Source: a bacterium
GTDB taxonomy: Bacteria > Bacteroidota > Bacteroidia > B-17B0 > Aurantibacillaceae
Assembly: GCA_029945625.1 (NCBI GenBank)
Contig: JAQSCW010000015.1
Location: forward strand, 1-37,080
Direction of reading: 5' to 3'
DNA: 37,080 nt
Part shown: positions 1 through 35,859 of the stretch, one piece after another
Layout of the letters: each line of letters opens with the position of its first letter
Position numbering within the stretch: position 1 is the first letter of the stretch
Notes under the pieces: model-generated
The model's database searches: none
What the model was told of the DNA's origin: nothing
The model's input: the letters and a program-made list of their open reading frames with translations, nothing else
Program-made: the position numbers and the translations under genes

Positions 1-194
1 GTGGGCTTTCCACTACAATCGCTCACGCAGCAAACTAGTTGTCTCCATTTATAAAAAAAATCGAAGGAATAAACAAAATGCATTTCCCCAACAATTCGGC
101 TTGATCCAAAGTTTGCCCTTCGTCCCCAATGTAGAGAGCGTATCCGAATTTTACTTTCCTGCCCCTACCCGAGATCATCTTGCAATTTGGAAAC
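1..194. other. Gene-free left edge, possible repeat fragment
   Basis: No credible reading frame is present; the short frames here stop within a few codons. The first 25 bases contain GGGCTTTCCACTACAATC. This resembles, from memory only, the tail of a dispersed Bacteroidota repeat (GGGCTATCCGCT.CAATC-like), and GCTTTCC also occurs at the right edge of the window. The rest is unremarkable sequence downstream of the leftward membrane-protein gene, with no clear terminator hairpin. Confidence 0.35.
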
Positions 195-1433
195 CTATTT
201 CACATCCACATCGGGTACCTGAACCGTGTGACTTCGTCGTTGTGACAGGAGTAACATAACAAGGCTGATTAGGATGACCAGAGAGGCCGCCAGCAAGGCG
301 AGATTTCCATAGGGAATAGAAGTGTAAGAAAACGAAGCGATGCCCTGAATACCCAAAATCAACTCATTTAAGTATACGCCGGCAATAAAAACGAGAATCC
401 CTGACGTGCTGAGTTTATTGATGTGAATGATCTTCATCACATGCAGATAAGAAACCAGAAAAACGGAAATAATTGCCAGTAAGATCAAGTGCAAGTAAGC
501 GATTACGATGGGCCTGAAACCGAATGCCAGCTGACTCACCGCGGGAATAGTGGAACCGAGCTGCAAGGTGAATTTAACGCTGAGGGCCAGAGCCACCAAG
601 AGAAAAAACAAGCGACCCTTTTTGAATAAATCAGTAGCGCTGCCAAGACTTGTTTTTATTCTTAGCAAAAAAAAGATCCAGGCAGAAGCTTGCAATAGTG
701 CCGCCGCCACAACCACCAACAATAACCAAAGTGGCAGGTGCAACCAAAGGATCGAGAGGAGATATGAAAACACACAGGAAATTGCAAACCACGTAAAAAT
801 ACGCTCCGAATATCTAAAAGCAGGTAACAACTTAGGGAGCTGAGAAATAAAGAGACCCAAACAGGCAAAGGTAAAAAAGCCATTATATTGAAAGTGCAGG
901 TAGTAGTACAAAGAAGCGAGATGAACCTTTTGATTAAAAATATGGCGGGCAATATGATATGCAAGCGTGAAGGTGCCCAAGGATGAAACTATATTGAACC
1001 ATAACGCCGCTTTAAACCAATTCTTGTAAGGGACATTCACTAAACTTTTGAGGTCTTTAAATAAATTATAAGCAACTAAATAAGAAACTAGGATCGAACA
1101 GGTGGAAATGACAATGGAAATCCAACTATATCCCGTGCAGGAAAAAGAAATCAACATGCCATAGGCACAGATTAGATTGGCGATAAGTAGTTTTTTGTAT
1201 TTTCCAATCGCAAGTAAAGGCTTGTCCTGTTGTATTACCCAAATCATTAATACATATAAGGTATGAGCAAGCCAGCCCACAAATGCAAAATGAGAATGGG
1301 CATGCTGAAGACTTTTTTGATCAAAGTACGGGAATTCGTAACCGATCTTGTAACGCATTATTACTCCCAAAACGGCAATAATCAGAAGATTGAATATGGA
1401 AATATTCAACCAATACTTATAATTCAACTTCAT
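195..1433 (-). CDS. Polytopic membrane protein, haem-copper oxidase subunit I-like
   Basis: This 412-residue protein is almost entirely hydrophobic, with roughly eleven to twelve predicted membrane spans. Near the N-terminus is HAHSH (residues 44-48) followed by GW (53-54), and further on H160, H164, H171 and YLHFQYNGFF (179-188). Histidine-rich HAHxxxxGW and YLHxQYNGxF helices recall single-subunit proteins distantly related to haem-copper oxidase subunit I (CcoN/NorB-like); haem binding is inferred, not shown. No oxidase partner subunit lies nearby. The gene ends with TAG and starts at the ATG on 1431-1433. It faces away from the DoxX gene, and a pair of FNR-like sites lies between them; the nearer one is 32 bp from a degenerate -7 element, so low-oxygen or redox control is likely. 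Function is uncertain. Confidence 0.6.
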   Translation of the reverse strand: MKLNYKYWLNISIFNLLIIAVLGVIMRYKIGYEFPYFDQKSLQHAHSHFAFVGWLAHTLYVLMIWVIQQDKPLLAIGKYKKLLIANLICAYGMLISFSCTGYSWISIVISTCSILVSYLVAYNLFKDLKSLVNVPYKNWFKAALWFNIVSSLGTFTLAYHIARHIFNQKVHLASLYYYLHFQYNGFFTFACLGLFISQLPKLLPAFRYSERIFTWFAISCVFSYLLSILWLHLPLWLLLVVVAAALLQASAWIFFLLRIKTSLGSATDLFKKGRLFFLLVALALSVKFTLQLGSTIPAVSQLAFGFRPIVIAYLHLILLAIISVFLVSYLHVMKIIHINKLSTSGILVFIAGVYLNELILGIQGIASFSYTSIPYGNLALLAASLVILISLVMLLLSQRRSHTVQVPDVDVK

Positions 1434-1496: not shown

Positions 1497-1538
1497 CAAA
1501 GATCAGTAGAGCAGGTCCTGAGCTTTTGACAAGTATCA
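1497..1538 (-). promoter_or_regulatory. Leftward promoter with FNR-like site for the oxidase-like gene
   Basis: TGACAAGTATCA at 1527-1538 fits TGA-N6-TCA. On the minus strand a degenerate -7 element, GATCTTTG (1504-1497), has its centre 32 bp away, putting the site near -41. The second site at 1549-1560 lies exactly 22 bp further upstream for this promoter, so the pair is shared with the divergent DoxX promoter. Confidence 0.5.
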
Positions 1539-1548
1539 GCAAAATGAC

Positions 1549-1591
1549 TGACTTTAGTCATGCTAAAAATCTCATTGATTTTTCAAATTTG
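1549..1591 (+). promoter_or_regulatory. DoxX operon promoter with FNR-like site
   Basis: TGACTTTAGTCA (1549-1560) is a perfect TGAC-N4-GTCA palindrome. The -7 element CAAATTTG (1584-1591) has its centre exactly 33 bp downstream, so the palindrome would centre near -41 of a start at about 1594, some 16 bases before the ATG. The second copy at 1527-1538 is centred exactly 22 bp upstream. Confidence 0.65.
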
Positions 1592-1609: not shown

Positions 1610-2023
1610 ATGGAGTTTAATAGTCAAATAGCCGAATTTTTGGTCAGAATTTTCTTGGGAATTCTGTTCTTTTTTCAAGGCTATGACAAGCTTTTCGGGA
1701 TTAAAATGGCGGCTGTTATACGTGCTTTTCAGGACGACGCCAATCGCAATCATATTCCCCGGCCCATTCTTGTAATCATTTCCTACTATACCAGCCTTGT
1801 GGAGTTAGTGGGCGGCTTATTGCTCCTCCTCGGCTTATATACGAACTACAGCCTGTATTTGTTGGGTTCTGATTTGTTGCTGGTATGTTGCGCATTTACC
1901 TATATGCAACCGATGTGGAACATGAAGTACGTATTTCCCCGTTTTGTTCTGCTTATCTTTTTACTCATGTTGCCCGAGAGCTCACATCATTTCAGTTTGG
2001 ACCATTTTTTTATGAATAAATAA
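1610..2023 (+). CDS. DoxX-family membrane protein
   Basis: The 137-residue protein has the four membrane spans of the DoxX family. It starts with the usual amphipathic lead and RIFLGILFFFQGYDKLF (residues 13-29), and has a second pair of helices around VELVGGLLLLLGL and LLGSDLLLVCCAF. DoxX proteins are small inner-membrane proteins linked to respiration and redox stress in several bacteria; the biochemical role is not settled. A close paralogue is encoded at 36480-36905, sharing the QGYDKLF segment. The start at 1610 leaves a short leader after the predicted promoter. The TerB-like gene follows after 15 bases, so the two are probably co-transcribed. The paired FNR-like sites upstream place it in the regulon described for this window. 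Confidence 0.85.
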   Translation: MEFNSQIAEFLVRIFLGILFFFQGYDKLFGIKMAAVIRAFQDDANRNHIPRPILVIISYYTSLVELVGGLLLLLGLYTNYSLYLLGSDLLLVCCAFTYMQPMWNMKYVFPRFVLLIFLLMLPESSHHFSLDHFFMNK

Positions 2024-3116: not shown

Positions 3117-4175
3117 TTAGGCACGCAATTTTTTTAATTTATCGGGTGCAATGATGGTGATGTTGCTCCCCTTGATTTCTACCATTTTTTCGTCTTTAAA
3201 GTCGCTCAGCGTACGAATCAGCGATTCGGTGGCCGTACCTACTATGTTGGCGAGATCTTCTCTTGAGATGGAAATGGTGAAGTTTTTATCTTTCGATGTG
3301 TTATAACGTTTTTGGAGTAAAATGAGTGCTTCCGCCACACGCTTTCGAACGGTGCTGTATGCCAAATTCACCAATTGTGTTTCTTTTTCAATGATATTGT
3401 CTGACAACATTTTCACAAATGTTTTCATCACGTGTACATTCCCGTACATCAATGAGAAAAAATCTTCTTTGGGGATTAAACAAACTTCCGAATCTTCCAA
3501 GGCTTCAGCTGTTTCAGAATAGGGCTGCTCTTCCAAAAGTGCCGTATAGCCAAAGAAGTCGCCTTCTTTATAGAGCGTTGTAATGAGTTCCTTGCCATAT
3601 TCGTGCGAGCGGTAAGTTTTTACTTTTCCTTTCGATAAAAAATAAAGATAAATGGGACTACTGCCTTCACCAAAGATATTTTCCTTCTTTTTATAGACCT
3701 TGATCCTCCGATCGGTAGAAAGTTTCTTGAGGTCGTCAATTTTCTGTACTTCATCAAAAAACTTATTTAGTCCTTCAACATTTTTCGAAAATTCGGCACG
3801 CAAAAATTCACTTTTCTTCAGGCGACTCTCCACAGCCTTGAGCAATTCAATGTCGTCGAAGGGTTTGCTGATATAGTCATCTGCTCCCATTTCCATGCCT
3901 TTTCTAAAGTCCATGCGCTCGCTTTTTGCCGTTAAAAAAATAAACGGAATACTTGCGGTTTCAGGGTTCTTATTGAGCAAATGGATTACGCCGTATCCGT
4001 CGAGCACGGGCATCATAATATCGCAAATGATGAGGTCGGGTTTCACCTGCTGCGCAATTTCAACTCCCAATTTTCCGTTTTCTGCCTGCAGAACTTTGTA
4101 ATTTGCCAATTCTAAGATCTCGGCGGTGTTCTCGCGAACATCCATGTTGTCTTCTATAATCAAGATTGTTTTCAT
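3117..4175 (-). CDS. Response regulator fused to a CRP/FNR transcription factor
   Basis: The 352-residue protein has three domains: a receiver domain (about 1-122) with the acidic pair E8/D9, phospho-acceptor D52 in ICDIMMP and conserved K104 in SKPF; a cyclic-nucleotide-binding-type beta-barrel (about 145-255); and a CRP-type winged helix (about 265-345). In the recognition helix, TESLIRTL places Glu317 and Arg321 where CRP Glu181/Arg185 and FNR Glu209/Arg213 contact the TGA core, while the Arg180-equivalent of CRP is Thr316, as in FNR-like readers. No cysteine cluster for an iron-sulphur centre is seen, so sensing probably comes through phosphorylation by the kinase encoded just upstream with one base between. 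I infer that it binds the TGA-N6-TCA palindromes of this window, including those at its own promoter. Receiver-CRP fusions are unusual. Confidence 0.85.
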   Translation of the reverse strand: MKTILIIEDNMDVRENTAEILELANYKVLQAENGKLGVEIAQQVKPDLIICDIMMPVLDGYGVIHLLNKNPETASIPFIFLTAKSERMDFRKGMEMGADDYISKPFDDIELLKAVESRLKKSEFLRAEFSKNVEGLNKFFDEVQKIDDLKKLSTDRRIKVYKKKENIFGEGSSPIYLYFLSKGKVKTYRSHEYGKELITTLYKEGDFFGYTALLEEQPYSETAEALEDSEVCLIPKEDFFSLMYGNVHVMKTFVKMLSDNIIEKETQLVNLAYSTVRKRVAEALILLQKRYNTSKDKNFTISISREDLANIVGTATESLIRTLSDFKDEKMVEIKGSNITIIAPDKLKKLRA

Positions 4176-4176
4176 A

Positions 4177-5385
4177 TTATTCGTTCGGAATGGTGATGTT
4201 AAACGTGGTTCCTTTATTTAATTCGCTTGTAAATTCAATACGTCCTTGCATGGTTTCAAGATATTTTCCAATAATATTAAGTCCCAAGCCGGTACCCTGA
4301 ATATTGGTAACATTTTTAGCTCTGAAGAACCGTTCAAACAAGTGATCCTGTTCCTCCTTCGGAATACCAATGCCCTCGTCGGAAACTTCAATTTTTATTT
4401 CCGCTTCGCTAATGTCGGTAGTTACTTTTATCGTTCTATTCTCGGGCGAAAACTTTATGGCATTTGAAATGAGGTTGAGCAGGATATTCCTCACCATTTG
4501 CCGGTCGAACAATGCAATGGAAGGGCCAACGTGATGATAAACCACTTTTTGGCCCGTTTTCAAAATTCCCTGAATCTCACCTATCACTTCATTGGCCAGT
4601 TTTTGAAGATCCAATTCTTCTTTACGCAAAAACACCTTGCCCTCTTCTAACTTTTCGGCCGACAAGAAGTCGTTTAAAATAAGGGTCATATTAGTGACTG
4701 CTGATTTTATGCGGTTCACGTGCTTGCTCACTTTTTCGTCATTCAGACTCTCATTATATTTGTTGACCAACGAAATTGAAGATAAGATGGTACTTAAAGG
4801 AGTTCTGAATTCATGAGACGCCATGGTCACAAAGCGCGACTTCATATCATTCAACTCCTTTTCGGCCTCCAGTGCAATACTTAACTGTTCTTTCGAATTT
4901 TCAAGTTCGATAAGAGCTTCCTGAAGCACCTTGGTTCGTTCCTCCACCTTATTTTCGAGTTCCATATTGAGCCGAATGATGTTCGCTTCCTGGCGTTTTC
5001 TTTCGGTTACGTCAATAATAAAGGAAATTACAAACTGTTCCCCATCCTGCTTATAATAAGAAAGACTGATTTCCAACGGAAACTCCGAATTATCTTTTCG
5101 TTTCCCGAAGAGCGTCATGTTTTTACCCATGGAGCGCGCGTGGGGATGAGCATTGTATCCGGCCCGGTGGTGGGTATGACCTTCAACAAAGCGGGTGGGT
5201 ACCAGATCTTCTATCACTTTACCCTGAAGTTCGCCCGGTTTGTAGCCAAAAAGCCGCTCCGAACTGGGATTTGCCCTCACAATAGTACCCTGCTGATCGG
5301 CAATAACAATGCCTTCAGTAGCATGTTCAAAAAGGGCATTCAAGCTTTGCATACGAAACGAGTTTTCAGTTTCTAATGTAATCAT
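4177..5385 (-). CDS. PAS-domain sensor histidine kinase
   Basis: The 402-residue protein lacks membrane spans and is probably cytosolic. An N-terminal PAS domain (about 12-128) is followed by a coiled coil (130-185), a dimerisation/phospho-acceptor domain with His191 in MASHEFRTPL, and an ATPase domain with N308 in the N box, DEGIG at 336-340 and GTGLGL at 364-369. All catalytic residues are present. In the PAS domain, LVPxxxxxxH (L61 to H70) and the later GKRKDNSEFP align without gaps to FixL-type PAS domains, with His70 at the position of the FixL haem ligand; however, Met90 replaces the oxygen-contacting Arg220, and this His is also common in PAS domains with no known haem. The response regulator follows after one base, so they form a pair. 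Two FNR-like sites precede the gene. Confidence 0.88.
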   Translation of the reverse strand: MITLETENSFRMQSLNALFEHATEGIVIADQQGTIVRANPSSERLFGYKPGELQGKVIEDLVPTRFVEGHTHHRAGYNAHPHARSMGKNMTLFGKRKDNSEFPLEISLSYYKQDGEQFVISFIIDVTERKRQEANIIRLNMELENKVEERTKVLQEALIELENSKEQLSIALEAEKELNDMKSRFVTMASHEFRTPLSTILSSISLVNKYNESLNDEKVSKHVNRIKSAVTNMTLILNDFLSAEKLEEGKVFLRKEELDLQKLANEVIGEIQGILKTGQKVVYHHVGPSIALFDRQMVRNILLNLISNAIKFSPENRTIKVTTDISEAEIKIEVSDEGIGIPKEEQDHLFERFFRAKNVTNIQGTGLGLNIIGKYLETMQGRIEFTSELNKGTTFNITIPNE

Positions 5386-5423
5386 TTTAAGTCTGGTTTT
5401 AATATTATTTAAATTGACTTATT

Positions 5424-5488
5424 CAAATTTCACCAATAAAGCATGAAATTACCTTGACAGGCGTCAGGTCAAAAACTGACAATTGTCA
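5424..5488 (-). promoter_or_regulatory. Promoter of the kinase/regulator operon with two FNR-like sites
   Basis: TGACAGGCGTCA (5455-5466) and TGACAATTGTCA (5477-5488) are both perfect TGAC-N4-GTCA palindromes, centred 22 bp apart. The minus-strand -7 element GAAATTTG (5431-5424) is centred exactly 33 bp from the nearer one. The transcript would start near 5420, about 35 bases before the ATG. The arrangement implies autoregulation. Confidence 0.7.
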
Positions 5489-5502: not shown

Positions 5503-5567
5503 TGAGGTTAATCACGTCGAGGGCTGACGGCTGTCAGAACAATGCCTAATAACAAGTGCTAATTTTG
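5503..5567 (+). promoter_or_regulatory. UspA promoter with two FNR-like sites
   Basis: TGAGGTTAATCA (5503-5514) and TGACGGCTGTCA (5525-5536) are centred 22 bp apart. A perfect -7 element, TAATTTTG (5560-5567), is centred exactly 33 bp after the second. Transcription would start near 5571, leaving a leader of about 67 bases. Together with the two sites of the divergent promoter there are four palindromes in 82 bp. Confidence 0.75.
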
Positions 5568-5637
5568 TAAAAGGCTAGGGGCCGATTTAAAATTGTGCAA
5601 GGCATTAGCTCTTTCTTAACTAACTAGTAATGATACT

Positions 5638-6459
5638 ATGAAAACCATATTGGCAACCAGCGATTTTTCGCCTGCATCACTCAACGCTGCCAGATACGCA
5701 GCAGAATTAGCCGCAAAAGCCGGCGCAAAATTGATTCTCCTGCACGTGTACCACCCCCCGGTAATGGTATCGGAAGGATATATCGTAACCCCTTCGCTGG
5801 ACGAGATGAAAGAGGACAGTAATGCACGATTAAAACTTATTTGCGATAAACTTCAATCTGAACAAGAAGGAAAATTAGACCTTGAGTTCCAAAGTAAAGT
5901 GGGTTTGGCAGCTGATGAAATTGATTTGTTTGCGAAAGAAAAACAGGTTGATTTGGTAATCATGGGCATGCAAAGCAGTAGTAAAATGGCCGAAAAATTG
6001 TTTGGCAGCACTACTACTTCTTTCCTTTCCCGAACATTGTGCACCACGTTATCGATCCAACAAGATGTAAAATTTAAGGATGTAAAAAAGATAGCCTACG
6101 CCAGTGATTACAAAGAGTATCATACAAATTTACCCGAGATTCTACGGGATCTTATCAAACTCTGGGGCGCTTCCATCCACATCCTCCACGTATTTCCCGA
6201 ACAAGGAGAGATCCCTTCTTACAACGAGGCTATTGCAGGAATAAAGTTGGAGCAACAATTGCAAGGAATTGAACACACGTTTCATGCCATTGTAAACAAA
6301 GATGTGGTGCAGGGAATAAACGACTATATCACCGCAAATAAGTCCGACATGGTGGTGATGACCCCTCGCAAGCACTCGTTCATCGAATCACTGTTTAAGG
6401 AACCGAACACGAAACGAATGGCCTTTCATTCTAACATACCTTTACTTACCATTCACTGA
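5638..6459 (+). CDS. Universal stress protein, tandem UspA domains
   Basis: The 273-residue protein contains two Usp domains (about 1-140 and 147-273), each starting with a beta strand followed by a DFS or DYK-type acidic loop. The first-domain nucleotide loop reads GMQSSSKMAEKLFGSTTT, a variant of the ATP-binding G-x2-G-x9-G(S/T) motif in which the second Gly is Ser, so ATP binding is possible but not certain. The second domain is more diverged. Tandem Usp proteins are typical of Bacteroidota and are induced by growth arrest, oxygen or redox stress. The gene lies opposite the kinase operon, and four FNR-like sites occupy the space between. The unknown gene at 6472 follows after 12 bases and is probably in the same operon. 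Confidence 0.9.
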   Translation: MKTILATSDFSPASLNAARYAAELAAKAGAKLILLHVYHPPVMVSEGYIVTPSLDEMKEDSNARLKLICDKLQSEQEGKLDLEFQSKVGLAADEIDLFAKEKQVDLVIMGMQSSSKMAEKLFGSTTTSFLSRTLCTTLSIQQDVKFKDVKKIAYASDYKEYHTNLPEILRDLIKLWGASIHILHVFPEQGEIPSYNEAIAGIKLEQQLQGIEHTFHAIVNKDVVQGINDYITANKSDMVVMTPRKHSFIESLFKEPNTKRMAFHSNIPLLTIH

Positions 6460-6471
6460 TACCCGCTCATT

Positions 6472-6882
6472 ATGATCATAGCGATTAACGACAACCGCAA
6501 ACTGTACGCTGTGCAGGAGGAGTTTACTCAACAATTTCCGTTTCTTAAACTCGAATTTTTTTCTAAGCCTTCAAAGCCCGGAGCAGGTTCTTCCAAGAAA
6601 ATCATCGGCCATAGCAGTAAAACGATAGGAGAGTGCCGAACCATTCACGATAATGGAAATATTTCTATAAGTCCCGAAATGACCGTGACCGAACTCGAGC
6701 AACGTTTTAGCGATGTATATGGTTTACATGTACAGCTGCTGCGAAAAGCCGGTAATGTATGGCTCGAAACCTCGGTTACCGATGGATGGACCCTGAGCGA
6801 GCAAAACCGTCAGGGTGAAACCTTAAGCAAAGACTTGCACCAGGTGAACTCCAAGAGTGAGCAAAATCAAAACAAGGATTGA
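6472..6882 (+). CDS. Uncharacterised small protein, paralogue of 2475-2867
   Basis: I do not recognise this 136-residue protein beyond its relation to 2475-2867. The shared parts are the N-terminal EEFTQQFPFLKLEFF-like segment (about residues 16-30) and the C-terminal block with ISPEMTVTELEQRF and VWLETSVTDGWTLSEQN. The C-terminal tail is hydrophilic and rich in Gln, Asn and Lys. No signal peptide or membrane span is present. The start is the ATG 12 bases after UspA, matching the N-terminus of the paralogue. The 3' end is unusual: the two FNR-like sites of the Hsp20 promoter lie at its end, one fully inside the last codons and the other beginning at the stop codon TGA. Confidence 0.6.
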   Translation: MIIAINDNRKLYAVQEEFTQQFPFLKLEFFSKPSKPGAGSSKKIIGHSSKTIGECRTIHDNGNISISPEMTVTELEQRFSDVYGLHVQLLRKAGNVWLETSVTDGWTLSEQNRQGETLSKDLHQVNSKSEQNQNKD

Positions 6883-6922
6883 GTGTGGTCATTTGAATCG
6901 GTAGTTTTCACTTGCAACTTTG
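6858..6922 (+). promoter_or_regulatory. Hsp20 promoter with two FNR-like sites, partly inside the preceding gene
   Basis: TGAGCAAAATCA (6858-6869) and TGAGTGTGGTCA (6880-6891) are centred 22 bp apart. The -7 element CAACTTTG (6915-6922) is centred exactly 33 bp after the second. The first site is wholly within the 3' coding part of the preceding gene, and the second begins with its stop codon. The leader would be about 40 bases. Confidence 0.6.
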
Positions 6923-6966: not shown

Positions 6967-7410
6967 ATGACACTCGTAAAAGCAAAAAAAGACACAAACC
7001 TGTTTCCTTCATTATTGACAGATTTTTTTGATAATGATAAATTTTTTGGAAATCGCTGGTTTGAAAAAGAATTCAACGATTCTCTGCCTGCCGTAAACAT
7101 TAAAGAAAACGGCAAAGAATTTGACCTCGAATTTGCGGCACCCGGATTCACAAAATCTGACTTCAAAATCAATGTCGAAGAAAATGTACTTACAGTTTCG
7201 GCAGAAAAGGAAAAAGAAAAAAAAGAAGAAAACGAACGTTTTACCAGAAAAGAGTACGCGTATAATTCTTTTTCACGTTCATTTACGTTACCTCAGAACA
7301 TTATTGCCGATAAAATTGATGCCAAATACACTGAAGGTATTTTGAAACTTTGCATTCCTAAAAAGGAAGTCGTAAAATCGCTTCCTAAAAAAGAAATTAA
7401 AGTGGATTGA
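6967..7410 (+). CDS. Hsp20/alpha-crystallin small heat-shock protein
   Basis: The 147-residue protein has the expected length and layout of a small heat-shock protein: a short N-terminal arm with LFPSLLTDFFDNDKFF, an alpha-crystallin domain from about residue 40 (LPAVNIKENGKEFDLEFAAPG) to 133, and the A-x-y-x-x-G-I-L-K-L signature at about 121-130 (AKYTEGILKL), followed by a lysine-rich tail. Such proteins form oligomers and hold unfolding proteins in solution without ATP. The gene has its own promoter with two FNR-like sites, rather than only a heat-shock control, and a strong terminator hairpin follows it. It therefore closes the UspA gene group. Confidence in the family is very high. Confidence 0.95.
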   Translation: MTLVKAKKDTNLFPSLLTDFFDNDKFFGNRWFEKEFNDSLPAVNIKENGKEFDLEFAAPGFTKSDFKINVEENVLTVSAEKEKEKKEENERFTRKEYAYNSFSRSFTLPQNIIADKIDAKYTEGILKLCIPKKEVVKSLPKKEIKVD

Positions 7411-7631: not shown

Positions 7632-8570
7632 ATGACTGTTGCACCTCGGATTCCGTTCGGGAAGATTCTTTTTTTCCTCTTTATTTCTTTAACATTAACT
7701 ATCCGCGCCCAAGATAATTTGGATAGCTTAATGAGTGACCTGGCGGGCGAAGAAAAACCCGAAAACGTTATGGCCACGTTTAAAACCACCAAGTTGGTTA
7801 ATTTGCAAACCACAGAGCAGGTAAAGCGGGGAGAATTGGATTTTAGGATCACCCACCGCTTCGACGACATTGGTAGTTCGGCGGGAGGCATTAAAACGCT
7901 CTACGGGTTTGATAATGTTACCGATATAAGACTTGGTTTTGACTATGGTTTAAACGACAAATGGACTATAGGGTTTGGAAGAAGCAAAGGCGCGTACGTA
8001 AGAAAACAGATCCTGGATTTTAATACTAAGATTAAAATCCTTCAACAAAAAACCAACAATTCTATTCCGTTCAGCGCGTCGCTTTACATGGCTTCCGAAA
8101 TTAGCACGATGGCATCCTCCTCCGATACCATGTCAACTGCATACTTCAACAAGAGTCCCTGGCACCGCATCAATTACGTATCGCAACTTTTACTCGCGCG
8201 AAAATTCGGTGATCGGCTTTCAATTGAACTGGCCCCCACCCTTATTCACCGAAACCTGGTAAATTACACAGAAAACAACACCACGTTTGCACTGGGATTC
8301 GGTTTTAGATACAAATTTACCAAGCGGCTAGGCATTATTTGCGACTACTTTTACAGTTTTGATAAAACCAAAGTACCCTCAAACGGATATTACGCTGCAT
8401 TGGGCATTGGTATTGAGATTGAAACAGGAGGACACGTATTTCATTTGCTTTTCAGCAATAACAAAGGAGTTCTCGAAAGTCAGTACATCACCGAAAACAA
8501 AGACAATTGGCTGGTTGGACAGGTAAGATTTGGCTTCAATATCTCAAGAGTTTTTCATGTTGGTAATTAA
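7632..8570 (+). CDS. DUF5777-type outer-membrane beta-barrel protein
   Basis: The 312-residue protein has an N-terminal signal peptide (KILFFLFISLTLTIRAQ, cleavage probably near residue 27) and then alternating amphipathic strands ending in an aromatic/Asn-rich C-terminus, as in an outer-membrane barrel. FRITHRFDDIG..., GFDNVTDIRLGFDYGLNDKW and the closing WLVGQVRFGFNISR match, by memory, the DUF5777 family of Bacteroidota, which is often encoded next to haem c lipoproteins as it is here. Its role is unknown; it may provide a surface electron or substrate pathway. The cytochrome gene follows after 19 bases, so they are likely an operon. The 221-base gap before it holds the Hsp20 terminator but no FNR-like site. 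Confidence 0.75.
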   Translation: MTVAPRIPFGKILFFLFISLTLTIRAQDNLDSLMSDLAGEEKPENVMATFKTTKLVNLQTTEQVKRGELDFRITHRFDDIGSSAGGIKTLYGFDNVTDIRLGFDYGLNDKWTIGFGRSKGAYVRKQILDFNTKIKILQQKTNNSIPFSASLYMASEISTMASSSDTMSTAYFNKSPWHRINYVSQLLLARKFGDRLSIELAPTLIHRNLVNYTENNTTFALGFGFRYKFTKRLGIICDYFYSFDKTKVPSNGYYAALGIGIEIETGGHVFHLLFSNNKGVLESQYITENKDNWLVGQVRFGFNISRVFHVGN

Positions 8571-8589
8571 AATTTTAAAAAAAATAAAA

Positions 8590-9282
8590 ATGAACCGTTC
8601 TCATCTATTCATCCTACCCATGGCGCTGGCCGCATGTACCGTGTTCTTTAACGGCTGCACGAAAGACAAAACCCCTGTCCCTGTTGAACCCTGCGATCCC
8701 AACAAGGTATATTTTCAAAACGACGTATTTCCGATTATTGCCTCCAATTGCGCCAAGAGTGGCTGTCACGATGCTGCTACGCAAGCAGAAGAAATAAATC
8801 TCTCCTCTTATAATGGGATTATGAAAATCGTGAAGCCCGGTAATCCATCGGGAAGTGATCTCATGAAAGTGATTAATACTCCCACCGGCGAAAAAGCCAT
8901 GCCTCCGGCGCCAAACACCCCTTTAAGTCAAACTAAAAAAGACATGATCAGCAAATGGATCTCGGAAGGAGCTTTAAATAACTATTGCTCAAATGACCTT
9001 GCTAACTGCACTACTGATTCTGTTACCTATAGTGGTACTATTTCGAAGATCATGATATCCAACAATTGTCTTTCCTGCCACTCCGGAGCAACTATTAAAG
9101 GTGGATTTGACCTGTCTAATTACTCGGGAGTTCAAAGCGCTGCCGCCAGCGGAAAATTATATAATGCAGTTTTGCAAAATGGTTCTGCCGTGGCCATGCC
9201 CCCTTCGCCTGCTCCTAAGATCTCTTCCTGTGACTCCAAAAAAATAAAAGCTTGGATTGATGCAGGAATGAAAAACAACTAA
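8590..9282 (+). CDS. Cytochrome c-like lipoprotein with two haem-binding-type repeats
   Basis: I start this at the ATG on 8590, which gives MNRSHLF and a lipoprotein signal with lipobox FFNGC (Cys at about residue 23); the longer frame from 8530 would bury the signal and overlap the barrel gene. The mature 208 residues contain two similar halves, each VYFQNDVFPII or VTYSGTISKIM followed by a haem-type cluster and a later conserved AMPP. The first cluster is CAKSGCH (C-x4-CH) and the second is the normal CLSCH. The AMPP methionine is a plausible axial ligand in each half. It is probably a periplasm-facing or surface dihaem electron carrier. It is paired with the DUF5777 barrel upstream. Confidence 0.75.
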   Translation: MNRSHLFILPMALAACTVFFNGCTKDKTPVPVEPCDPNKVYFQNDVFPIIASNCAKSGCHDAATQAEEINLSSYNGIMKIVKPGNPSGSDLMKVINTPTGEKAMPPAPNTPLSQTKKDMISKWISEGALNNYCSNDLANCTTDSVTYSGTISKIMISNNCLSCHSGATIKGGFDLSNYSGVQSAAASGKLYNAVLQNGSAVAMPPSPAPKISSCDSKKIKAWIDAGMKNN

Positions 9283-10327: not shown

Positions 10328-11056
10328 ATGAAAGCAGTGATCGAAATAGAACATCTCAATAAGACTTTTGGCGACAATCATGTGTTGCGAGACTTTAGTT
10401 TTACCCTGCTTGAAGGAGAGAACGTGGTGGTACTCGGCAAATCGGGATCAGGAAAATCGGTTCTCATCAAGTGCATTATCGGACTGATTAGACCCGACTC
10501 CGGAAAATTACTAGTGTTTGGAAAAGATGTTCCAACGTTAAGCCACAAAGAGCTCGACCATGTGCGATCAAGAGTAGGCTTTTTGTTTCAGAGCAATGCC
10601 CTTTATGACTCCATGACAGTGAGAGAAAATCTTGAATTTCCGCTACGCCGGCACCGCAGCGAGTTGAACAAAGAGCAGATTAACGCACTCGTTATGGAAG
10701 CCCTTGGAAATGTGGGATTAGAGCACACGATCGACATGGAACCCTCTGAGCTTTCGGGAGGAATGAAAAAACGGATCGCGCTGGCCAGAACCCTCATTCT
10801 TAAACCCGACATCATCTTATACGATGAGCCTACCACCGGTTTAGACCCCATTACGGGAAAGGAAATAAGTCATCTGATCCGTGAACTGGCCCTTAAGTAT
10901 CATACCTCTTCTTTTATTATATCCCATGATCTTAACTGCGTAAACATTGTTGCCGACAAGATCATCATGCTCATCGATGGCACTTGCTACGCATCGGGAA
11001 CCATGGAGCAACTTAACCAATCAACAGATAGTAAAATAAAAACTTTTTTTGAATAA
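10328..11056 (+). CDS. mlaF: MlaF-family ABC ATPase
   Basis: The 242-residue ATPase has Walker A GKSGSGKS at 37-44, a Q-loop in FLFQSNALYDSMTV, the signature LSGGMKKR and Walker B IILYDEPTTGLDP, then the H-loop in ISHDL. The LSGGMKKR form and the ALYDSMTVRENL segment are typical of MlaF/TGD3-like ATPases rather than of general exporters. It powers the lipid transporter with the permease upstream and the MCE protein downstream. The operon is compact, with one base between its stop codon and the probable ATG of the next gene. Confidence 0.93.
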   Translation: MKAVIEIEHLNKTFGDNHVLRDFSFTLLEGENVVVLGKSGSGKSVLIKCIIGLIRPDSGKLLVFGKDVPTLSHKELDHVRSRVGFLFQSNALYDSMTVRENLEFPLRRHRSELNKEQINALVMEALGNVGLEHTIDMEPSELSGGMKKRIALARTLILKPDIILYDEPTTGLDPITGKEISHLIRELALKYHTSSFIISHDLNCVNIVADKIIMLIDGTCYASGTMEQLNQSTDSKIKTFFE

Positions 11057-12442: not shown

Positions 12443-12485
12443 CAAATTTATTATATAAATACGAAAGGGGCCATGAGTAGCATCA
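12443..12485 (-). promoter_or_regulatory. Promoter of the TerB-like gene with FNR-like site
   Basis: On the minus strand a perfect -7 element, TAAATTTG (12450-12443), is centred exactly 33 bp from TGAGTAGCATCA (12474-12485). The next site, TGACAATACTCA, is centred 22 bp further upstream and is shared with the divergent ATPase promoter. Confidence 0.6.
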
Positions 12486-12495
12486 AACACTTACA

Positions 12496-12537
12496 TGACA
12501 ATACTCATAATAATACCAAGGTAAGAATTTATTTTTG
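12496..12537 (+). promoter_or_regulatory. ATPase operon promoter with FNR-like site
   Basis: TGACAATACTCA (12496-12507) has one mismatch to the palindrome consensus. A perfect -7 element, TATTTTTG (12530-12537), is centred 32 bp downstream. The second site of the pair, 22 bp upstream, is the proximal site of the leftward TerB-like promoter. The leader would be about 65 bases. Confidence 0.6.
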
Positions 12538-17524: not shown

Positions 17525-18145
17525 ATGGAATTAACAAACGTCAACGAATTCAAATTCTCACCTCAAGTTAGGGAAAAACTTCTACAATATGGTTTTTCGA
17601 AAACCTTTAAAGAAGGCGATGTCATTCTAAATGAAAATGCATACATAAAAGCCATTCCCATCGTCACAACAGGAAATATACGGGTGATGCGCATGGACGA
17701 AGATGGCAGAGAGATTCTCCTGTATTACATCAAAGCAGGCGAAAGCTGCATCATGTCTTTTTTGGGTGGCATTCATCAGGACACCAGTAAGGTGAAGGCT
17801 GTAGCGGAGGAGGAAACAGAGATCCTTTTCATTCCCACCGACAAAGTGAGTTTACTAATTAAAGAATTTCCGGAATGGCTGGACTACATTTTCAGATTGT
17901 ATCACAAACGCTTTGAAGAACTGCTGCAAGTGGTAAACGATGTAGCGTTTAAGAAAATGGATGAGCGGCTCTTTGACTATATAAAAACAAAATGTGCCCT
18001 CACAAAAAGCCCCACACTTTTCGTTACCCACGAACAATTGGCCAATGAACTTGGAACCGCCAGAGTGGTTGTTTCGAGGCTCCTTAAACAAATGGAACAT
18101 GAAGGATTGGTGATTTTGGGGAGAAACAAAATTTCCCTTGTGTAA
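17525..18145 (+). CDS. CRP/FNR-family transcription regulator
   Basis: The 206-residue protein has a cyclic-nucleotide-type barrel (about 20-130), a dimer helix and a CRP winged helix (about 145-206). The N-terminus lacks the cysteine cluster of FNR, so an iron-sulphur sensor is not indicated; the effector is unknown. In the recognition helix, TARVVVSRLL puts Arg180, Val181 and Arg185 at the positions of Arg180, Glu181 and Arg185 of E. coli CRP. Replacement of Glu181 by Val changes the preferred core from TGTGA towards TGTAA in classic CRP work. Fittingly, TGTAAC boxes occur just downstream of this gene (18141) and before the rhodanese operon (18632). The gene is last in the ATPase operon, 18 bases after the PRPP synthetase-like gene. 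Confidence 0.88.
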   Translation: MELTNVNEFKFSPQVREKLLQYGFSKTFKEGDVILNENAYIKAIPIVTTGNIRVMRMDEDGREILLYYIKAGESCIMSFLGGIHQDTSKVKAVAEEETEILFIPTDKVSLLIKEFPEWLDYIFRLYHKRFEELLQVVNDVAFKKMDERLFDYIKTKCALTKSPTLFVTHEQLANELGTARVVVSRLLKQMEHEGLVILGRNKISLV

Positions 18146-22051: not shown

Positions 22052-22116
22052 TGATATTCATCATTTGACGACATGACAGGAATCATCGTGTCTTTAGTTC
22101 ATATTGTCGACATTTA
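22052..22116 (+). promoter_or_regulatory. Promoter of the second Usp operon with two FNR-like sites
   Basis: TGATATTCATCA (22052-22063) and TGACAGGAATCA (22074-22085) are centred 22 bp apart. GACATTTA (22109-22116), a degenerate -7 element with TTT in register, is centred exactly 33 bp after the second. The leader would be about 30 bases. Confidence 0.55.
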
Positions 22117-22149: not shown

Positions 22150-22986
22150 ATGCCAAAACTTTTAGTCACCACCGATTTTTCCGAAAATTCAAAAGCTGGA
22201 ATCCGATTCGCTCTGCAACTGGCTTCGCAAACACGCGCTGAACTAGAATTTTATCACCTCGTTGAAATAACAAAGCCCACGGCATGGTCGGACCGAAAGT
22301 TCAAATTTTTAGCAGAAGAACGGCTTAAACAAGCGCTCTTCAAACTTAAAAAATTTGTAGCAAAGATTGTCCTTAAAAGTGGTCAGCCCGCCGGCAAACA
22401 CAGCTTTAGGGTGGTGATCGGAAACGATGCCAGCGAACATATTATTTCGCATGCAAAAAAGTCGAAATTCGATTACATTTGCATGAGCACCCACGGGGCA
22501 GGCAAACTGCGAAAATTAATTGGCACTCATGCATCCGCTTTAATTACGGCTTCTCCCATTCCGGTATTTGTAGTTCCCAAAGGCTATCGTTCAAAACCAA
22601 TTTCTAAACTGTTTTATGCGTCTGATTTTTCAAACCTGGCAAAAGAACTTAGTCAGGTTGATCAATTTGCCAAACTCATACATGCCCACCTCGAAGTGTA
22701 TCATTTTGATTACCTCCTTCATGTGGATGAAAATAGAAAAAAACTGGAGGCAAAGGCAGCTAAATTTAAAAAACCATCTATCACGTTTAACTTCAAAAGA
22801 TTAGAGGTAGAGTTCACGCTTGCTGATCATTTGAAAAAATACGTACAAAAAATAAGATCCCAACTCTTAATCTTATTTACCAAACAAAACAGAACCTGGT
22901 ACGACAAGCTTTTGCGCAATGCCAGTTCGGCAGAAATGACTTTTCACTCCAAGACACCACTTCTGGTATTCAGAAAAAGAAAGTAA
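22150..22986 (+). CDS. Universal stress protein, tandem domains, degenerate nucleotide loop
   Basis: The 278-residue protein has a first Usp domain (about 1-148, starting with LLVTTDFSENSKAG) and a diverged second domain (about 155-278, starting LFYASDFSNLAK). The nucleotide loop reads STHGAGKLRKLIGTHAS: the first Gly of G-x2-G-x9-G(S/T) is Ser and the spacer is one residue short, so ATP binding is doubtful. The protein is unusually basic with many lysines. It is followed after 26 bases by a secreted thioredoxin and then by another Usp gene, forming a three-gene operon behind a paired-site promoter. It is most similar in layout to the Usp proteins at 5638 and 23461. Confidence 0.82.
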   Translation: MPKLLVTTDFSENSKAGIRFALQLASQTRAELEFYHLVEITKPTAWSDRKFKFLAEERLKQALFKLKKFVAKIVLKSGQPAGKHSFRVVIGNDASEHIISHAKKSKFDYICMSTHGAGKLRKLIGTHASALITASPIPVFVVPKGYRSKPISKLFYASDFSNLAKELSQVDQFAKLIHAHLEVYHFDYLLHVDENRKKLEAKAAKFKKPSITFNFKRLEVEFTLADHLKKYVQKIRSQLLILFTKQNRTWYDKLLRNASSAEMTFHSKTPLLVFRKRK

Positions 22987-31506: not shown

Positions 31507-34500
31507 TTATTTGCCTGATAAATAATTGAGTTGAATAATACTTTCATTGTAAGTCCTTAACACCTGAATGTACTCGTAGCGAAGATTCATAGCATGGTTA
31601 GTGAGCATGACCCATTGCAGGTAATTGATTTCGCCGTTGTGAAACTGTTTGGTGGCACCCACCGTAATTACATCGGCATTTTTTAAGGCGGTACCTTCAT
31701 AGTACAAGAGGATCTTTTGCTGGGTACGGTAGTGCGAAAATGCTCGCGCGTAATCTGTTTCGAGAACTTGCAAACCAAGTTGATAATTGTTATCCGCTAT
31801 GAGCAGGGTTTGGCGTGCTGCATCGATGCGCGACTTCTGAGCGCCAAAAAACAAAGGCACTCCTACTCCAATTTGTGCCGATTGAAACCGGCTCGAACCT
31901 GTGTAAGATACCTCATCCGCTCCCACGCCCTTCATGCTCATATTATTGTAAGCCACAAAAAATCCCGGCAACAATTTAGATCTTTCCAATTTAACCTGAA
32001 GTGCCGACGTTTTGCTTTGTTGCATCAGAAACAGCATGTTTGGGTGCTGCAAAAGCTGCGCTGTATCACTGAAGCCCTGCATCAGCAGTTTTTTCTCCTC
32101 CTCATCAGGCACCACTGCTGCACCAGTATTTAGCAGTAATTGAAACTGAAGTTGCATCATGTCCATTTCTGAATTCAGTTGCTCTAGTTGTACCAACAAT
32201 TGCCCCCGCTGAGTTTCGGCGGTTGCCTTCTCAAGTGCATTGCTCTCGCCGGCCTTCAACCGTTGTTCGGCTCCCGTTAAAAAATTAGCATACAAACTAT
32301 CATGATGCAGAAGCAAATTCTGTTTTTCCTTTAAATACTGCAGATCAAAAAAAGTTCGGCTCACGTTTTTTCTTAATTCTGCTTCTTTTAGGGCCACATT
32401 TAGAAGACTTTCATCCTTCAGTGAATAAAGGATAGTTTTTTGATTGCTATAAACACTCGGAAAACTGAAATTCTGCGTAACACTAAATCGGTTGTCAGAA
32501 TAGCTGCTGTTTATCTGACCAAATTCCCCCGCTACATTGGTTTGAGGCAGATCGAAACCACTCTTCAGTAATTTCTTTCGATATTCCGCTAGTAATCGTT
32601 CGTTCTTTACCGTTAAATTGTTCTTCAACGCAGTATCTGTAGCTCCCTGCAAACTAAGCCGGGTTTGTGCATTAACGGGTGATGCAAAAGTGAGAACACC
32701 CAAAAACAACACCGATGCAAGTGGCAATTTTTGTTTTTTCTTAAGAAAACGTTTCTCAAAAAGAACATACAATACGGGCAATATAAACAAAGTAAGTCCG
32801 GTAGCAATTATCAGTCCGCCTATAACCACTGTGGCCAACGGGCGTTGCACTTCGGCCCCGGCTCCTTGACTAAGAGCCATAGGGAGAAACCCTAGTGAAG
32901 CCACTGCTGCCGTCATGAGTACGGGCCGCAAACGAATGCGGGTGCCTTTCATCACAATTTCACGTAAGTCTGCAATACCTTCCAACTTCAACCTGTTAAA
33001 CTCGGCAATGAGTACAATACCGTTTAATACTGCCACACCAAACAAGGCAATAAAACCTACACCTGCGCTAATGCTGAAGGGAAGTCCGCGCAAGGCCAGG
33101 GCAAACACTCCCCCTATGGCCGAAAGTGGAATAGCTGAGTATATTAATAAACCGTGACGAATGGAATTGAACGCAAAATAGAGTAAAAGGAAGATCAAGG
33201 CCAAAGAAACAGGCACTGCAATCGAGAGTCGTTTTTTGGCGGCATTAAGGTTTTCGAAAGCTCCACCGTAAGTAGGGTAATACCCGGTTGGGAATTTTAC
33301 CTGCGCGGTCACTTTATCCTGAAGTTCGTGCACGATGCTTTGAACGTCTCTGCCCCTCACATTAAACCCAATAATGATGCGACGTTTCGCATCTTCCCGC
33401 TGAATTTGATTGGGACCATTGCGCTCCTGCACATCGGCAAAGTGAGAAAGTGGCACTTGATTACCGTTCGGTGTGGGGATAAGCACATTCAGTACATCCT
33501 GAAGGTGTTTTCGTTTGTTACTGTCCAGTCGCACCACCAAATCGAACCTACGTTCACCCTCAAATACCATTCCTGAGCTTTCACCCGCAAAAGCCGCTCT
33601 GATAATTTTATTTACTTCAGAAACAGATATATTGTATTGCGCCATTATTGCCCTCTTGTATGAAATAACTATTTGCGGCATACCGGTAACCGTTTCCACA
33701 TACAGATCTTTAGCTCCGTCAACTGTAGAAATAATGGAACCGAGTTTGGCTGCGTATTTTGAGAGAGTGTCGAGGTCTTCACCAAATATCTTACAAACTA
33801 CATCTTGTTTGGCACCTGTCATCAATTCGTTAAAACGCATTTGCACCGGAAATTGGAAACTGTATGTAAGTCCCGGTACATCCTCCAATGCCGCCGCCAT
33901 TTTTTCGGCCAACTCATTAAATGATCGGGCGCTCGTCCACTCTTTTTTATCTTTGAGCATTATCACCATGTCTGCTGCTTCCATAGGCATAGGATCGGTG
34001 GGTACTTCCCCACTCCCAATTTTGGTGACCACTTTTTGCACTTCCGGAAATTGCGTTTTCAGAATATGCGCCGCTTTCTGCGTACCGGCTATGGTGGTGT
34101 TGAGATTTGTTCCCGTAAGTAAACGAGTTTCAACAGCGAAATCACCTTCTTCTAAAGTGGGAATGAACTCCCCTCCCAGCGATAACAGTACCATCATGGC
34201 AACCACAAATAACGACACCACTATCCCAATTGCATATTTTGGAACATGAAGAACTTTGAGAAGGGCACGCTGAAAAACATTCTCGATGCGCTCCATAAAT
34301 TTGTCTGAGATATTTTTTTTAATTTTTATTGTTCTGCTTAAGAACAGCGTACTCATCATGGGAATATAAGTAAGCGAAAGCAGAAACGCGCCCACCAAGG
34401 CGAACGCCACAGTTTGAGCCATGGGTTTAAACATTTTTCCTTCTATTCCCTGTAAGGTAAAAATAGGAAGGTAAACCACCAAAATGATCAATTGCCCAAA

Positions 34501-35859
34501 TACGGCACTGTTCATCATTCTTCCGGCCGAATGCTCTACCTCAACATCCATCTGTTTTTGGTCGAGTCGCGTTAATCCTGCCACTCCTTTGCTCGCACTG
34601 AGCCGATGCATCACCGCTTCTACAATAATTACCGCACCGTCAACAATGAGTCCGAAATCGAGTGCACCCAAACTCATTAAATTGCCGCTCACACCAAAGG
34701 TGTTCATCATGATCACCGCAAACAACATAGATAAAGGAATAACAGAAGCCACTAACAAACCGGCCCTGAAATTTCCCAAAAACAATACCAGAACAAAAAT
34801 CACGATAAGGGCCCCCTCCATCAGATTTGTCTCTACCGTGCCAATGGCATTGTTCACCATTTTACTCCTGTCCAGAAACGGCTCGAGTACCACACCCACC
34901 GGAAGAGTCTTTTGAATTTCAAGGATCTTCTTCTTTACGAGTTTTATCACGTCGCTGCTGTTAGCCCCCTTCAACATCATTACCACCGCTCCGGCCACTT
35001 CTCCCTGATCATCAAGACACATAGCGCCGAAACGCGTGGCACTGCCAATTCGCACTTCGGCCACATCTTTTACAAACAATGGAGTGCCATTTCCTGTTGA
35101 ACGGATGGCCGTATTTCGAATGTCCTCTTCTTTGCCAATAAGTCCCTCCGTACGAATGTTGAGCACCGTGGGGCCCTTTTCAATATAGGCTCCCCCCGTG
35201 TTTTCATTGTTGCTTTCTAGAGCTTTAAATACATCACTGATGGTGATATTATACGACTGAAGTTTGTTGGGATCTACCGCCACCTCATATTGCTTTAGTT
35301 TGCCACCAAAACTACTCACCTCAGCAACACCCCTCACCCCCAGCAACTGCCGGCGAACGATCCAATCCTGAATGGTACGTAGTTCTGTTATACTGTACTT
35401 TTGTTCGTAGCCCTTTTTGGGCCGGATCACATATTGGTAGATTTCACCGAGCCCTGTTGAAACCGGACCAAGTACCGGAATCCCAATCCCCTTTGGAATA
35501 ATGGCCTGCACCCTCTGAAGCCGCTCTGCTACCTGCTGCCGAGCCCAGTAGATGTCGGTATTATCTTCAAATACAATGGTAACCAGTGAAAGTCCGAAGC
35601 GTGAAAAACTTCTAATCTCTATAAGGCCGGGAATATTGTTATTGGCCTGTTCAATAGGAAAAGTAATGAGTCGTTCAATGTCATTAGCACCAAACGAAGG
35701 CGCCAACGTGATCACCTGAACCTGATTATTGGTAATATCAGGCACTGCGTCGATGGGTAATTTGGTAAGTTGGTATGATCCGTATCCTACAAGCACGGCC
35801 AAAAACAAACCAATCATTAATTTATTTCGAATAGAAAAATGGATGATCTTATTGAGCAT
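31507..35859 (-). CDS. CzcA-type heavy-metal RND pump fused to a TolC-like outer-membrane channel
   Basis: This 1450-residue protein joins a heavy-metal RND pump (about 1-1040) to an outer-membrane channel protein of the CzcC/TolC family (about 1065-1450). The pump has the proton-relay helix ALDFGLIVDGAVIIVEA and two large periplasmic loops. In the substrate region it reads DPMPMEAADM and MRFNELMTG, like CzcA, and lacks the methionines that CusA uses for copper and silver, suggesting zinc, cobalt or cadmium (inference). At the junction (about residues 1040-1065) lies a hydrophobic SVLFLGVLTFASPVNAQ that looks like the channel's own signal peptide, kept inside the chain. The CzcB-like adaptor gene follows. 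Pump-channel fusions of this length are familiar in Bacteroidota. Confidence 0.9.
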   Translation of the reverse strand: MLNKIIHFSIRNKLMIGLFLAVLVGYGSYQLTKLPIDAVPDITNNQVQVITLAPSFGANDIERLITFPIEQANNNIPGLIEIRSFSRFGLSLVTIVFEDNTDIYWARQQVAERLQRVQAIIPKGIGIPVLGPVSTGLGEIYQYVIRPKKGYEQKYSITELRTIQDWIVRRQLLGVRGVAEVSSFGGKLKQYEVAVDPNKLQSYNITISDVFKALESNNENTGGAYIEKGPTVLNIRTEGLIGKEEDIRNTAIRSTGNGTPLFVKDVAEVRIGSATRFGAMCLDDQGEVAGAVVMMLKGANSSDVIKLVKKKILEIQKTLPVGVVLEPFLDRSKMVNNAIGTVETNLMEGALIVIFVLVLFLGNFRAGLLVASVIPLSMLFAVIMMNTFGVSGNLMSLGALDFGLIVDGAVIIVEAVMHRLSASKGVAGLTRLDQKQMDVEVEHSAGRMMNSAVFGQLIILVVYLPIFTLQGIEGKMFKPMAQTVAFALVGAFLLSLTYIPMMSTLFLSRTIKIKKNISDKFMERIENVFQRALLKVLHVPKYAIGIVVSLFVVAMMVLLSLGGEFIPTLEEGDFAVETRLLTGTNLNTTIAGTQKAAHILKTQFPEVQKVVTKIGSGEVPTDPMPMEAADMVIMLKDKKEWTSARSFNELAEKMAAALEDVPGLTYSFQFPVQMRFNELMTGAKQDVVCKIFGEDLDTLSKYAAKLGSIISTVDGAKDLYVETVTGMPQIVISYKRAIMAQYNISVSEVNKIIRAAFAGESSGMVFEGERRFDLVVRLDSNKRKHLQDVLNVLIPTPNGNQVPLSHFADVQERNGPNQIQREDAKRRIIIGFNVRGRDVQSIVHELQDKVTAQVKFPTGYYPTYGGAFENLNAAKKRLSIAVPVSLALIFLLLYFAFNSIRHGLLIYSAIPLSAIGGVFALALRGLPFSISAGVGFIALFGVAVLNGIVLIAEFNRLKLEGIADLREIVMKGTRIRLRPVLMTAAVASLGFLPMALSQGAGAEVQRPLATVVIGGLIIATGLTLFILPVLYVLFEKRFLKKKQKLPLASVLFLGVLTFASPVNAQTRLSLQGATDTALKNNLTVKNERLLAEYRKKLLKSGFDLPQTNVAGEFGQINSSYSDNRFSVTQNFSFPSVYSNQKTILYSLKDESLLNVALKEAELRKNVSRTFFDLQYLKEKQNLLLHHDSLYANFLTGAEQRLKAGESNALEKATAETQRGQLLVQLEQLNSEMDMMQLQFQLLLNTGAAVVPDEEEKKLLMQGFSDTAQLLQHPNMLFLMQQSKTSALQVKLERSKLLPGFFVAYNNMSMKGVGADEVSYTGSSRFQSAQIGVGVPLFFGAQKSRIDAARQTLLIADNNYQLGLQVLETDYARAFSHYRTQQKILLYYEGTALKNADVITVGATKQFHNGEINYLQWVMLTNHAMNLRYEYIQVLRTYNESIIQLNYLSGK

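Follow-up and report, generated by a model that had tools for sequence, protein, structure and literature searches.

A PAS histidine kinase and a receiver-CRP/FNR fusion regulator as a probable self-regulated low-oxygen system of Bacteroidota with a paired promoter code

Among the described bacterial systems, the closest to the locus considered here are the FixL-FixJ-FixK cascade and the FNR-type regulators. The cbb3 oxidase is among the targets of FixK, FixJ has an output domain of the DNA-binding type, and the FNR site has a TGA-N6-TCA core, which is also the core of the boxes described below. To our knowledge, the low-oxygen switching of aerobically respiring Bacteroidota is poorly charted. 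For one member of this phylum, strong induction of the cbb3 oxidase under oxygen limitation is described in a passage that names no regulator (PMC9723704). Here we analyse a contig of 37,080 bases (the window; contig C15 of the source genome G000, 4.12 Mb in 55 contigs) from a member of the Aurantibacillaceae, which carries on its minus strand a PAS histidine kinase gene (4177..5385) and a gene for a response regulator that fuses a receiver to a CRP/FNR-type DNA reader (3117..4175). This pair probably represents an oxygen-responsive, positively self-regulated system that would do the work of FixL, FixJ and FixK with the receiver and the FNR-class reader joined in one protein.

The regulator has 352 residues and consists of a Response_reg domain (4-116), a CRP/FNR effector-like cNMP_binding domain (159-243) and an HTH_Crp_2 domain (278-350). 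It has the acidic pair, phospho-acceptor Asp, Thr/Ser and Lys of two-component response regulators: E8, D9, D52 and K104 were found in all 41 aligned regulators, and T82 is Thr in 39 and Ser in two of them. It is also a member of the CRP/FNR superfamily, with a cNMP_binding fold followed by HTH_Crp. The recognition helix, GTATESLIRTL, carries E317 and R321, which occupy the alignment columns of the Glu and Arg of this helix in A. fischeri FNR, and the pattern GTATExxIRTL is nearly invariant (E317 in 40/41, Ile320 and R321 in 41/41 regulators). Both genes lie where a preliminary description of this DNA had placed them, and the residues it had singled out (D52, K104, Glu317 and Arg321) are correct and conserved. 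At the columns placed by eye at what we take to be the cAMP-contacting Glu and Arg in the phosphate-binding cassette of CRP, the fusion has Y210 (Tyr in 38/41) and Y219 (Tyr in 36/41). Only two Cys residues occur in the whole protein and no four-Cys cluster can be formed, which rules out its assignment as an FNR proper, the Fe-S oxygen sensor with N-terminal 4Fe-4S cysteines. The AlphaFold2 model, computed from an alignment of 38 rows out of 76, appears good for the individual domains of the fusion (mean predicted local distance difference test, pLDDT, 86.7; predicted template-modelling score, pTM, 0.64). The 50 Foldseek matches listed for it were CRP/FNR structures, with poor overall superposition (TMq about 0.3) and with no receiver-CRP protein among them.

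Fusions of this kind are common among Bacteroidota. Of the 87 genomes of the family comparison set, 71 have a match at E 1e-40, in some cases a partial one, and a kinase match adjoins the regulator in all 40 fetched neighbourhoods of its relatives (643,540 bases in total). Among named genomes, a relative at E 1e-3 is encoded by at least 581 of at least 593 candidate stretches, and the 80 best of these, which are nearly full-length, make up the named-genome set (Dyadobacter, Pontibacter, Chitinophaga, Rufibacter and others, with some family members recurring). The architecture had been called an uncommon design, a claim that fails on these counts: given its wide distribution, it is unusual only by textbook standards.

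The promoter of the kinase-regulator operon contains, as had been described, two perfect TGAC-N4-GTCA palindromes; they are 22 bp apart. The proximal box TGACAGGCGTCA (5455..5466) has a predicted centre at -41.5 and the distal box TGACAATTGTCA (5477..5488) at -63.5, and they are followed on the minus strand by a -7-like element GAAATTTG (5424..5431), with a predicted transcription start near 5419. This pair serves the operon, and a third exact palindrome, TGACGGCTGTCA (5525..5536), is by its position the proximal box of the divergent promoter of a universal stress protein (Usp) gene (5638..6459, plus strand), a predicted target. The latter promoter also has a degenerate distal box with one mismatch, TGAGGTTAATCA (5503..5514), and a -7 element TAATTTTG (5560..5567, plus strand), with a predicted start near 5572. 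Self-regulation is strongly supported by comparative genomics: of 39 relatives, 37 have TGA-N6-TCA in the 300 bp preceding the kinase gene, 32 the stricter TGAY-N4-RTCA and 15 a 22/23-bp pair (locus L080, with only 3 bases upstream, was excluded). With the window included, the 40 kinase promoters give 38, 33 and 16, respectively; the corresponding averages are 3.7, 1.0 and 0.007 for base shuffles of these sequences, and the counts for the reversed patterns are 4, 0 and 0. A -7 element with at most one mismatch lies 34-36 bp on from the box in 26 of the 37 boxed kinase promoters, and other three-offset windows give 0 to 8, except for the overlapping window 35-37 with 21.

We assessed the palindromes as single sites and as pairs. 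The window contains five exact TGAC-N4-GTCA palindromes, the three above and those at 1549 and 10313, the last of which is inside the 3' end of an MlaE gene and probably arose by chance; the shuffle mean is 0.40, and none of 100 shuffles reached five. With one mismatch there are 17 versus 10.1 expected, a number reached by 4 of 100 shuffles, so that loose single matches are weak evidence. As a genome-wide signature the exact single palindrome was rejected, as it is not enriched (36 versus 35 for the reversed control), and near the regulator it is, with 34 versus 6 in the 40 neighbourhoods. The informative signals are therefore pairs only, or neighbourhoods of the regulator. Unlike the single box, the 22-bp pair is far above chance. 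Allowing up to one mismatch, the pair pattern TGAY-N4-RTCA-N10-TGAY-N4-RTCA has 14 instances in the source genome, where the reversed pattern is absent, and 475, versus 20 for the reversed pattern, in the 87 family genomes, 74 of which hold at least one pair. Among the 440 TGA-N6-TCA palindromes of the 40 neighbourhoods, 74 pairs are spaced by 22 bp and 15 by 23 bp, with at most 4 pairs at each other distance from 8 to 60 bp, and the 125 reversed palindromes form no pairs. The 80 named loci contain 65 pairs at 22 bp and none in the reversed control at this distance. Of the 108 pairs recorded in 49 loci, a single one falls within a reading frame, and the other 107 are outside frames or at their edges, two pairs being counted twice due to the overlap of loci L102 and L103 of the source genome.

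The boxes are also placed at a fixed distance from the -7 element. Among 200 boxes, the Bacteroidota sigma-A -7 element TANNTTTG (TAnnTTTG), from which the element of the operon differs by one mismatch, begins most often at two distances downstream of the start of a box, 35 bp (29 cases) and 57 bp (33 cases), with at most 7 cases at any other distance from 12 to 84 bp; the control gave 0, from only 23 sites. The two peaks differ by 22 bp, as the box pair demands. In Flavobacterium psychrophilum, the mapped -7 element occupies -12 to -5 (PMC9723704). Applied here, this puts the proximal box at -47 to -36 with its centre at -41.5, and the centre of the distal box at -63.5. These positions correspond to a class II activator layout. 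The class II activator position is familiar for CRP and FNR. In the source genome, 16 of 20 hand-picked site-direction cases show, at offset 56-58, a -7 element that is exact (seven cases) or has one mismatch, the best of eight offsets being taken per case, and the remaining four have no such element. The same layout bears on the alternative that the operon boxes are repressor sites providing negative feedback. The sign of regulation cannot be given by sequence alone, which leaves this alternative some room; yet in most promoters with a recognized -7 element the boxes lie upstream of it at -41.5 and -63.5 with no overlap, and we consider repression highly improbable.

Two pairs, at 12474 in the window and at L107:7423 elsewhere in the source genome, have an exact -7 element on both sides, which suggests two-way promoters. 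Since the paired palindrome is symmetric, a single pair flanked by two such elements would switch on both divergent genes at once. The window pair (12474..12507) is degenerate, with two mismatches, and separates a TerB-family gene from a row of genes for a cation P-type ATPase, a phosphorylase-type and a PRPP-synthetase-type protein; it is a candidate two-way promoter of the same layout as L107:7423.

The presence of pairs follows the presence of the fusion. In the 62 genomes of good quality, at least one pair was found in 53 of 54 genomes with the fusion and in one of eight without it (phi 0.86), and over all 87 genomes this holds for 68 of 71 with the fusion and 6 of 16 lacking it (phi 0.63), the fusion being called at E 1e-40 throughout and shared ancestry of the genomes being ignored in these counts. 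Together with the fixed -7 distance, this association upholds the proposal of a regulon sharing the same boxes.

A single base separates the stop codon of the kinase (402 residues, PAS-HisKA-HATPase_c) from the start of the regulator. The PAS domain of the kinase has a solved PAS, 10jx, as its best sequence match and aligns with FixL (1d06, E 1.8e-13) and DosP, and His70 falls on the heme-histidine column of SmFixL (1d06). This residue is invariant in 41 of 41 kinases, as are R74, P81, R84, M86 and G87 alongside; in the named-genome set, which overlaps the first one, His is present at the same column in 59 of 64 aligning kinases, the window's own excluded. According to two studies, a His in helix F-alpha binds heme in FixL-type PAS domains (PMC10468136, PMC10765370). 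As a small control with loose alignments, stretches of the source genome with the other strong PAS_9 matches, and its second kinase, were scanned with a profile built from the PAS domains of the 41 kinases; besides the PAS of the window, four of 17 translated sequences passed, and none of these four shows His at the His70 column as read from the alignments. By its sequence, the kinase thus appears to be of the FixL heme-PAS type, and heme binding and oxygen sensing by it are plausible on this basis. Its AlphaFold2 model, from an alignment of 40 rows out of 49 suitable frames, seems usable (mean pLDDT 81.2, pTM 0.49); the 50 matches listed for it by VIA-align are headed by kinase cores and are neutral on a heme PAS.

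To characterize the predicted regulon, we clustered the 134 genes located directly downstream of pairs in the 49 loci, each cluster being named after one representative. DoxX-family proteins were found behind pairs in 26 loci, the kinase itself in 17 loci, Usp in 11 loci (14 genes), heavy-metal P-ATPases in 6 loci, Hsp20 in 4 loci, a fused cbb3 oxidase CcoNO in 4 loci and MlaE in 3 loci. Two further families, of 127 residues (15 loci, e.g., L055:5755-6138) and of 109 residues (13 loci, e.g., L047:11478-11807), have no Pfam match at E 0.001. In the source genome, the P-ATPase gene L107:7579-9987 has an upstream pair and is followed by CcoNO (1313 bits versus a cut-off of 1080). Boxes thus stand upstream of cbb3 oxidase genes, as in FixK/FNR-type regulons. 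Contig C19 of the same genome (34 kb) carries five pairs and genes for NadA, a class II ribonucleotide reductase and a COX1-family protein with a c-type cytochrome, which would be NorBC-like by context, as well as Usp, YceI and NrfD-type genes, although not all genes of this contig are directly behind a pair. Within the window, a DoxX-family gene (1610-2023, plus strand), divided from the gene 195-1433 (minus strand) by a pair at 1527..1560, is a predicted target; an Hsp20 gene (6967-7410) lies behind a degenerate pair with two mismatches (6858..6891), and a second Usp gene (22150-22986) behind a pair at 22052..22085, where the -7 match is poor (two mismatches). As judged from the encoded proteins, the box-bearing genes form a low-oxygen respiration and stress set.

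These data are consistent with the following mechanism. The kinase PAS would bind heme via His70 and sense oxygen as FixL does, and the kinase would phosphorylate the fusion at D52, as the conserved acceptor site and the common operon suggest. The regulator is expected to dimerise, and two dimers may then bind the observed TGA-N6-TCA boxes 22 bp apart. From -41.5 and -63.5 the bound dimers would activate sigma-A promoters in class II geometry, driving their own operon by positive feedback as well as the cbb3 oxidase, the metal P-ATPase, Usp, Hsp20, DoxX and other targets, and some pairs with -7 elements on both sides could drive two divergent genes. On a wider scale, chances are about even that this is a widespread low-oxygen regulator of Bacteroidota, in which a heme-PAS kinase and a receiver-FNR fusion collapse the FixL-FixJ-FixK cascade into two proteins, served by a promoter code peculiar to them in which two dimers sit at -41.5 and -63.5, spaced by 22 bp.

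Several observations weigh against this reading, at the level of the promoter, the sensor and the reader. The kinase's own -7 element has one mismatch. In the named loci the pairs often do not stand in front of the kinase: the roughly 300 bp that precede the kinase gene have no 22/23-bp pair in the Dyadobacter and Pontibacter loci and in three of four Chitinophaga-labelled loci, and this layout of self-regulation is therefore not universal. In the named-genome set, five of the 64 aligning kinases lack the His, and 14 of 78 kinases gave no alignment across His70, two of them without a readable frame. The FixL distal Arg column, which we take to be R220, is Met in the window kinase and variable among its relatives, and ligand preference may therefore differ from that of FixL. 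This last point favours a variant in which the system is built as described and the kinase senses redox state, nitric oxide or heme itself, with a general stress regulon as the output; so does the fact that DoxX and Usp genes head the list of box-bearing genes. In addition, a large survey treats this His as the determinant of heme binding in the FixL/DosP cluster and found it invariable in about 60% of that cluster (PMC10468136), so the type of PAS is not decisive by itself. On the other hand, His70 is invariant in the 41 kinases of the first set, cbb3 oxidase genes follow boxes, and the five-pair contig C19 carries a class II ribonucleotide reductase together with respiration genes, which makes this variant doubtful. 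The FixL-type PAS and the cbb3 oxidase among the targets point to low oxygen as the more likely signal than general stress. The preliminary description had linked the kinase to stress genes around it: Usp, Hsp20 and DoxX genes do carry boxes, and the signal behind them is likelier to be low oxygen.

With respect to the reader, pairs were found without the fusion in genomes G018 (13 pairs), G005 (3), G069 (3), G062 (2), G036 (1) and G061 (1), and three genomes (G043, G001 and G044) have a fusion match and no pair. In G018, the fusion was not found at E 1e-40, and down to 1e-12 only separate receiver or CRP matches appeared. This genome has a stand-alone FNR-like gene (match C276:10456-11139) with a one-mismatch pair just upstream (10365-10398), as if a one-component form used the same box code there; the code is thus probably shared with stand-alone relatives in some species. 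The G018 assembly is fragmented (630 contigs, 91% complete, 6% contaminated), and the fusion may lie in a gap. Furthermore, the pairs, the fusion and the targets may form one island that is acquired and lost as a unit, and with this and shared ancestry in mind co-occurrence by itself does not prove the reader.

The alternative suggested by G018 is that stand-alone FNR/CRP homologues are the main readers of the boxes, the fusion being their target or sharing their sites. The source genome holds four further HTH_Crp_2 proteins. Its homologues on contigs C17 and C52 have the recognition helices E--VR and E--IR, as read by eye, and a C17-type protein is present at E 1e-40 in 16 genomes, each of which has at least three pairs. 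However, at the thresholds used, 40 of the 54 good-quality pair genomes lack a C17-type protein, 45 lack a C52-type protein and 13 lack a relative of the receiver-less CRP/FNR gene located at 17525-18145 of the window. The association of these three proteins with pairs in the good genomes is much lower than that of the fusion (phi 0.21, 0.04 and 0.28, respectively, versus 0.86), and in the source genome none of their genes has a 22-bp pair upstream. The 17525-18145 protein was rejected as the main reader; the C17 and C52 homologues, with their lower association, were kept as rivals because of G018, and we regard the alternative as a whole as unlikely. In the case of the 17525-18145 protein, genome G037 has an 82% relative, yet neither pair nor fusion. 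The gene 17525-18145 is the last of the ATPase-side gene row that starts at the candidate two-way promoter, and its recognition helix, ARVVVSR, differs from that of the fusion, so it may read another site. The title of probable master regulator, given to the fusion in the preliminary description, goes beyond these data in view of the four further HTH_Crp_2 proteins and the boxes of G018 without a detected fusion.

It is very unlikely that a second fusion paralogue of the source genome (C31:135815-136855, 44% identical) reads some or all of the boxes. This view draws on genomes G003 and G004, where a second cluster of pairs surrounds a C31-type paralogue, and on single good boxes upstream of the C31 regulator and the nearby kinase. 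However, the rows at 44-50% identity, taken as the paralogue, come from only 11 of the 87 genomes, against the 74 with pairs, and the helix of the paralogue reads E--SR, at variance with the near-constant Glu317, Ile320 and Arg321 of the fusion, which we retain as the preferred reader. In the region L109:2578-9868 on contig C31, Usp and erythromycin-esterase-family genes are flanked by this second receiver-CRP fusion and a second kinase, which has no heme histidine.

Other genes of the window include a single frame of 1450 residues (31507-35859) that joins an AcrB/AcrD/AcrF-type pump (ACR_tran, 5-1034) to an outer-membrane efflux domain (OEP, 1270-1449). At 7632-9282, a gene for a DUF5777 barrel overlaps one that encodes PSCyt1 and CBB3-type cytochrome domains; further DUF5777 genes are present on contig C19, in the vicinity of box pairs and EB_dh-type genes.

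Exact-word searching of the open-access literature found no printed description of the receiver-CRP regulator of Bacteroidota or its box code. Two surveys that mention receiver and cNMP_binding domains list the latter as a sensing domain of kinases (PMC4618731, PMC9953108). The system described here would supply candidates for both sensor and reader together with an exact promoter code, which makes the question of low-oxygen control testable at named base pairs, and the box rule allows target genes in this group to be listed directly from genome sequence.

Several known systems share features with the locus. The DosR dormancy regulon of mycobacteria is a two-component hypoxia response with Usp and Hsp20 targets, as here, whereas the output domain of DosR is of the NarL type and its boxes are different. 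The closest solved relative of the CRP part is the Crp/Fnr regulator 2gau of Porphyromonas gingivalis (E 1.2e-30), a chain of 232 residues that has no receiver and bears Ser instead of Glu at the E317 column. FNR/ANR of E. coli and A. fischeri share the CRP/FNR fold and the recognition-helix Glu and Arg with the fusion; in contrast, FNR has Ser before the helix Arg, where the fusion has Ile, and the fusion carries a receiver and just its two Cys. The FixL-FixJ-FixK system of rhizobia and Caulobacterales resembles the locus in its PAS kinase with the heme-His column, its receiver and its FNR-type boxes, and FixK, like the fusion, is an FNR-class reader without an Fe-S cluster (PMC4999443). Membership in the FixLJ-FixK cascade itself was rejected, as the locus has no separate FixJ and no transcriptional relay (PMC4999443, PMC10765370). 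There, FixJ is a separate regulator that switches on fixK (PMC4999443), whereas in the present locus receiver and FNR-class reader form one protein and the transcriptional step drops out of the cascade: the receiver would drive an FNR-class reader directly, with one step of a well-known cascade removed.

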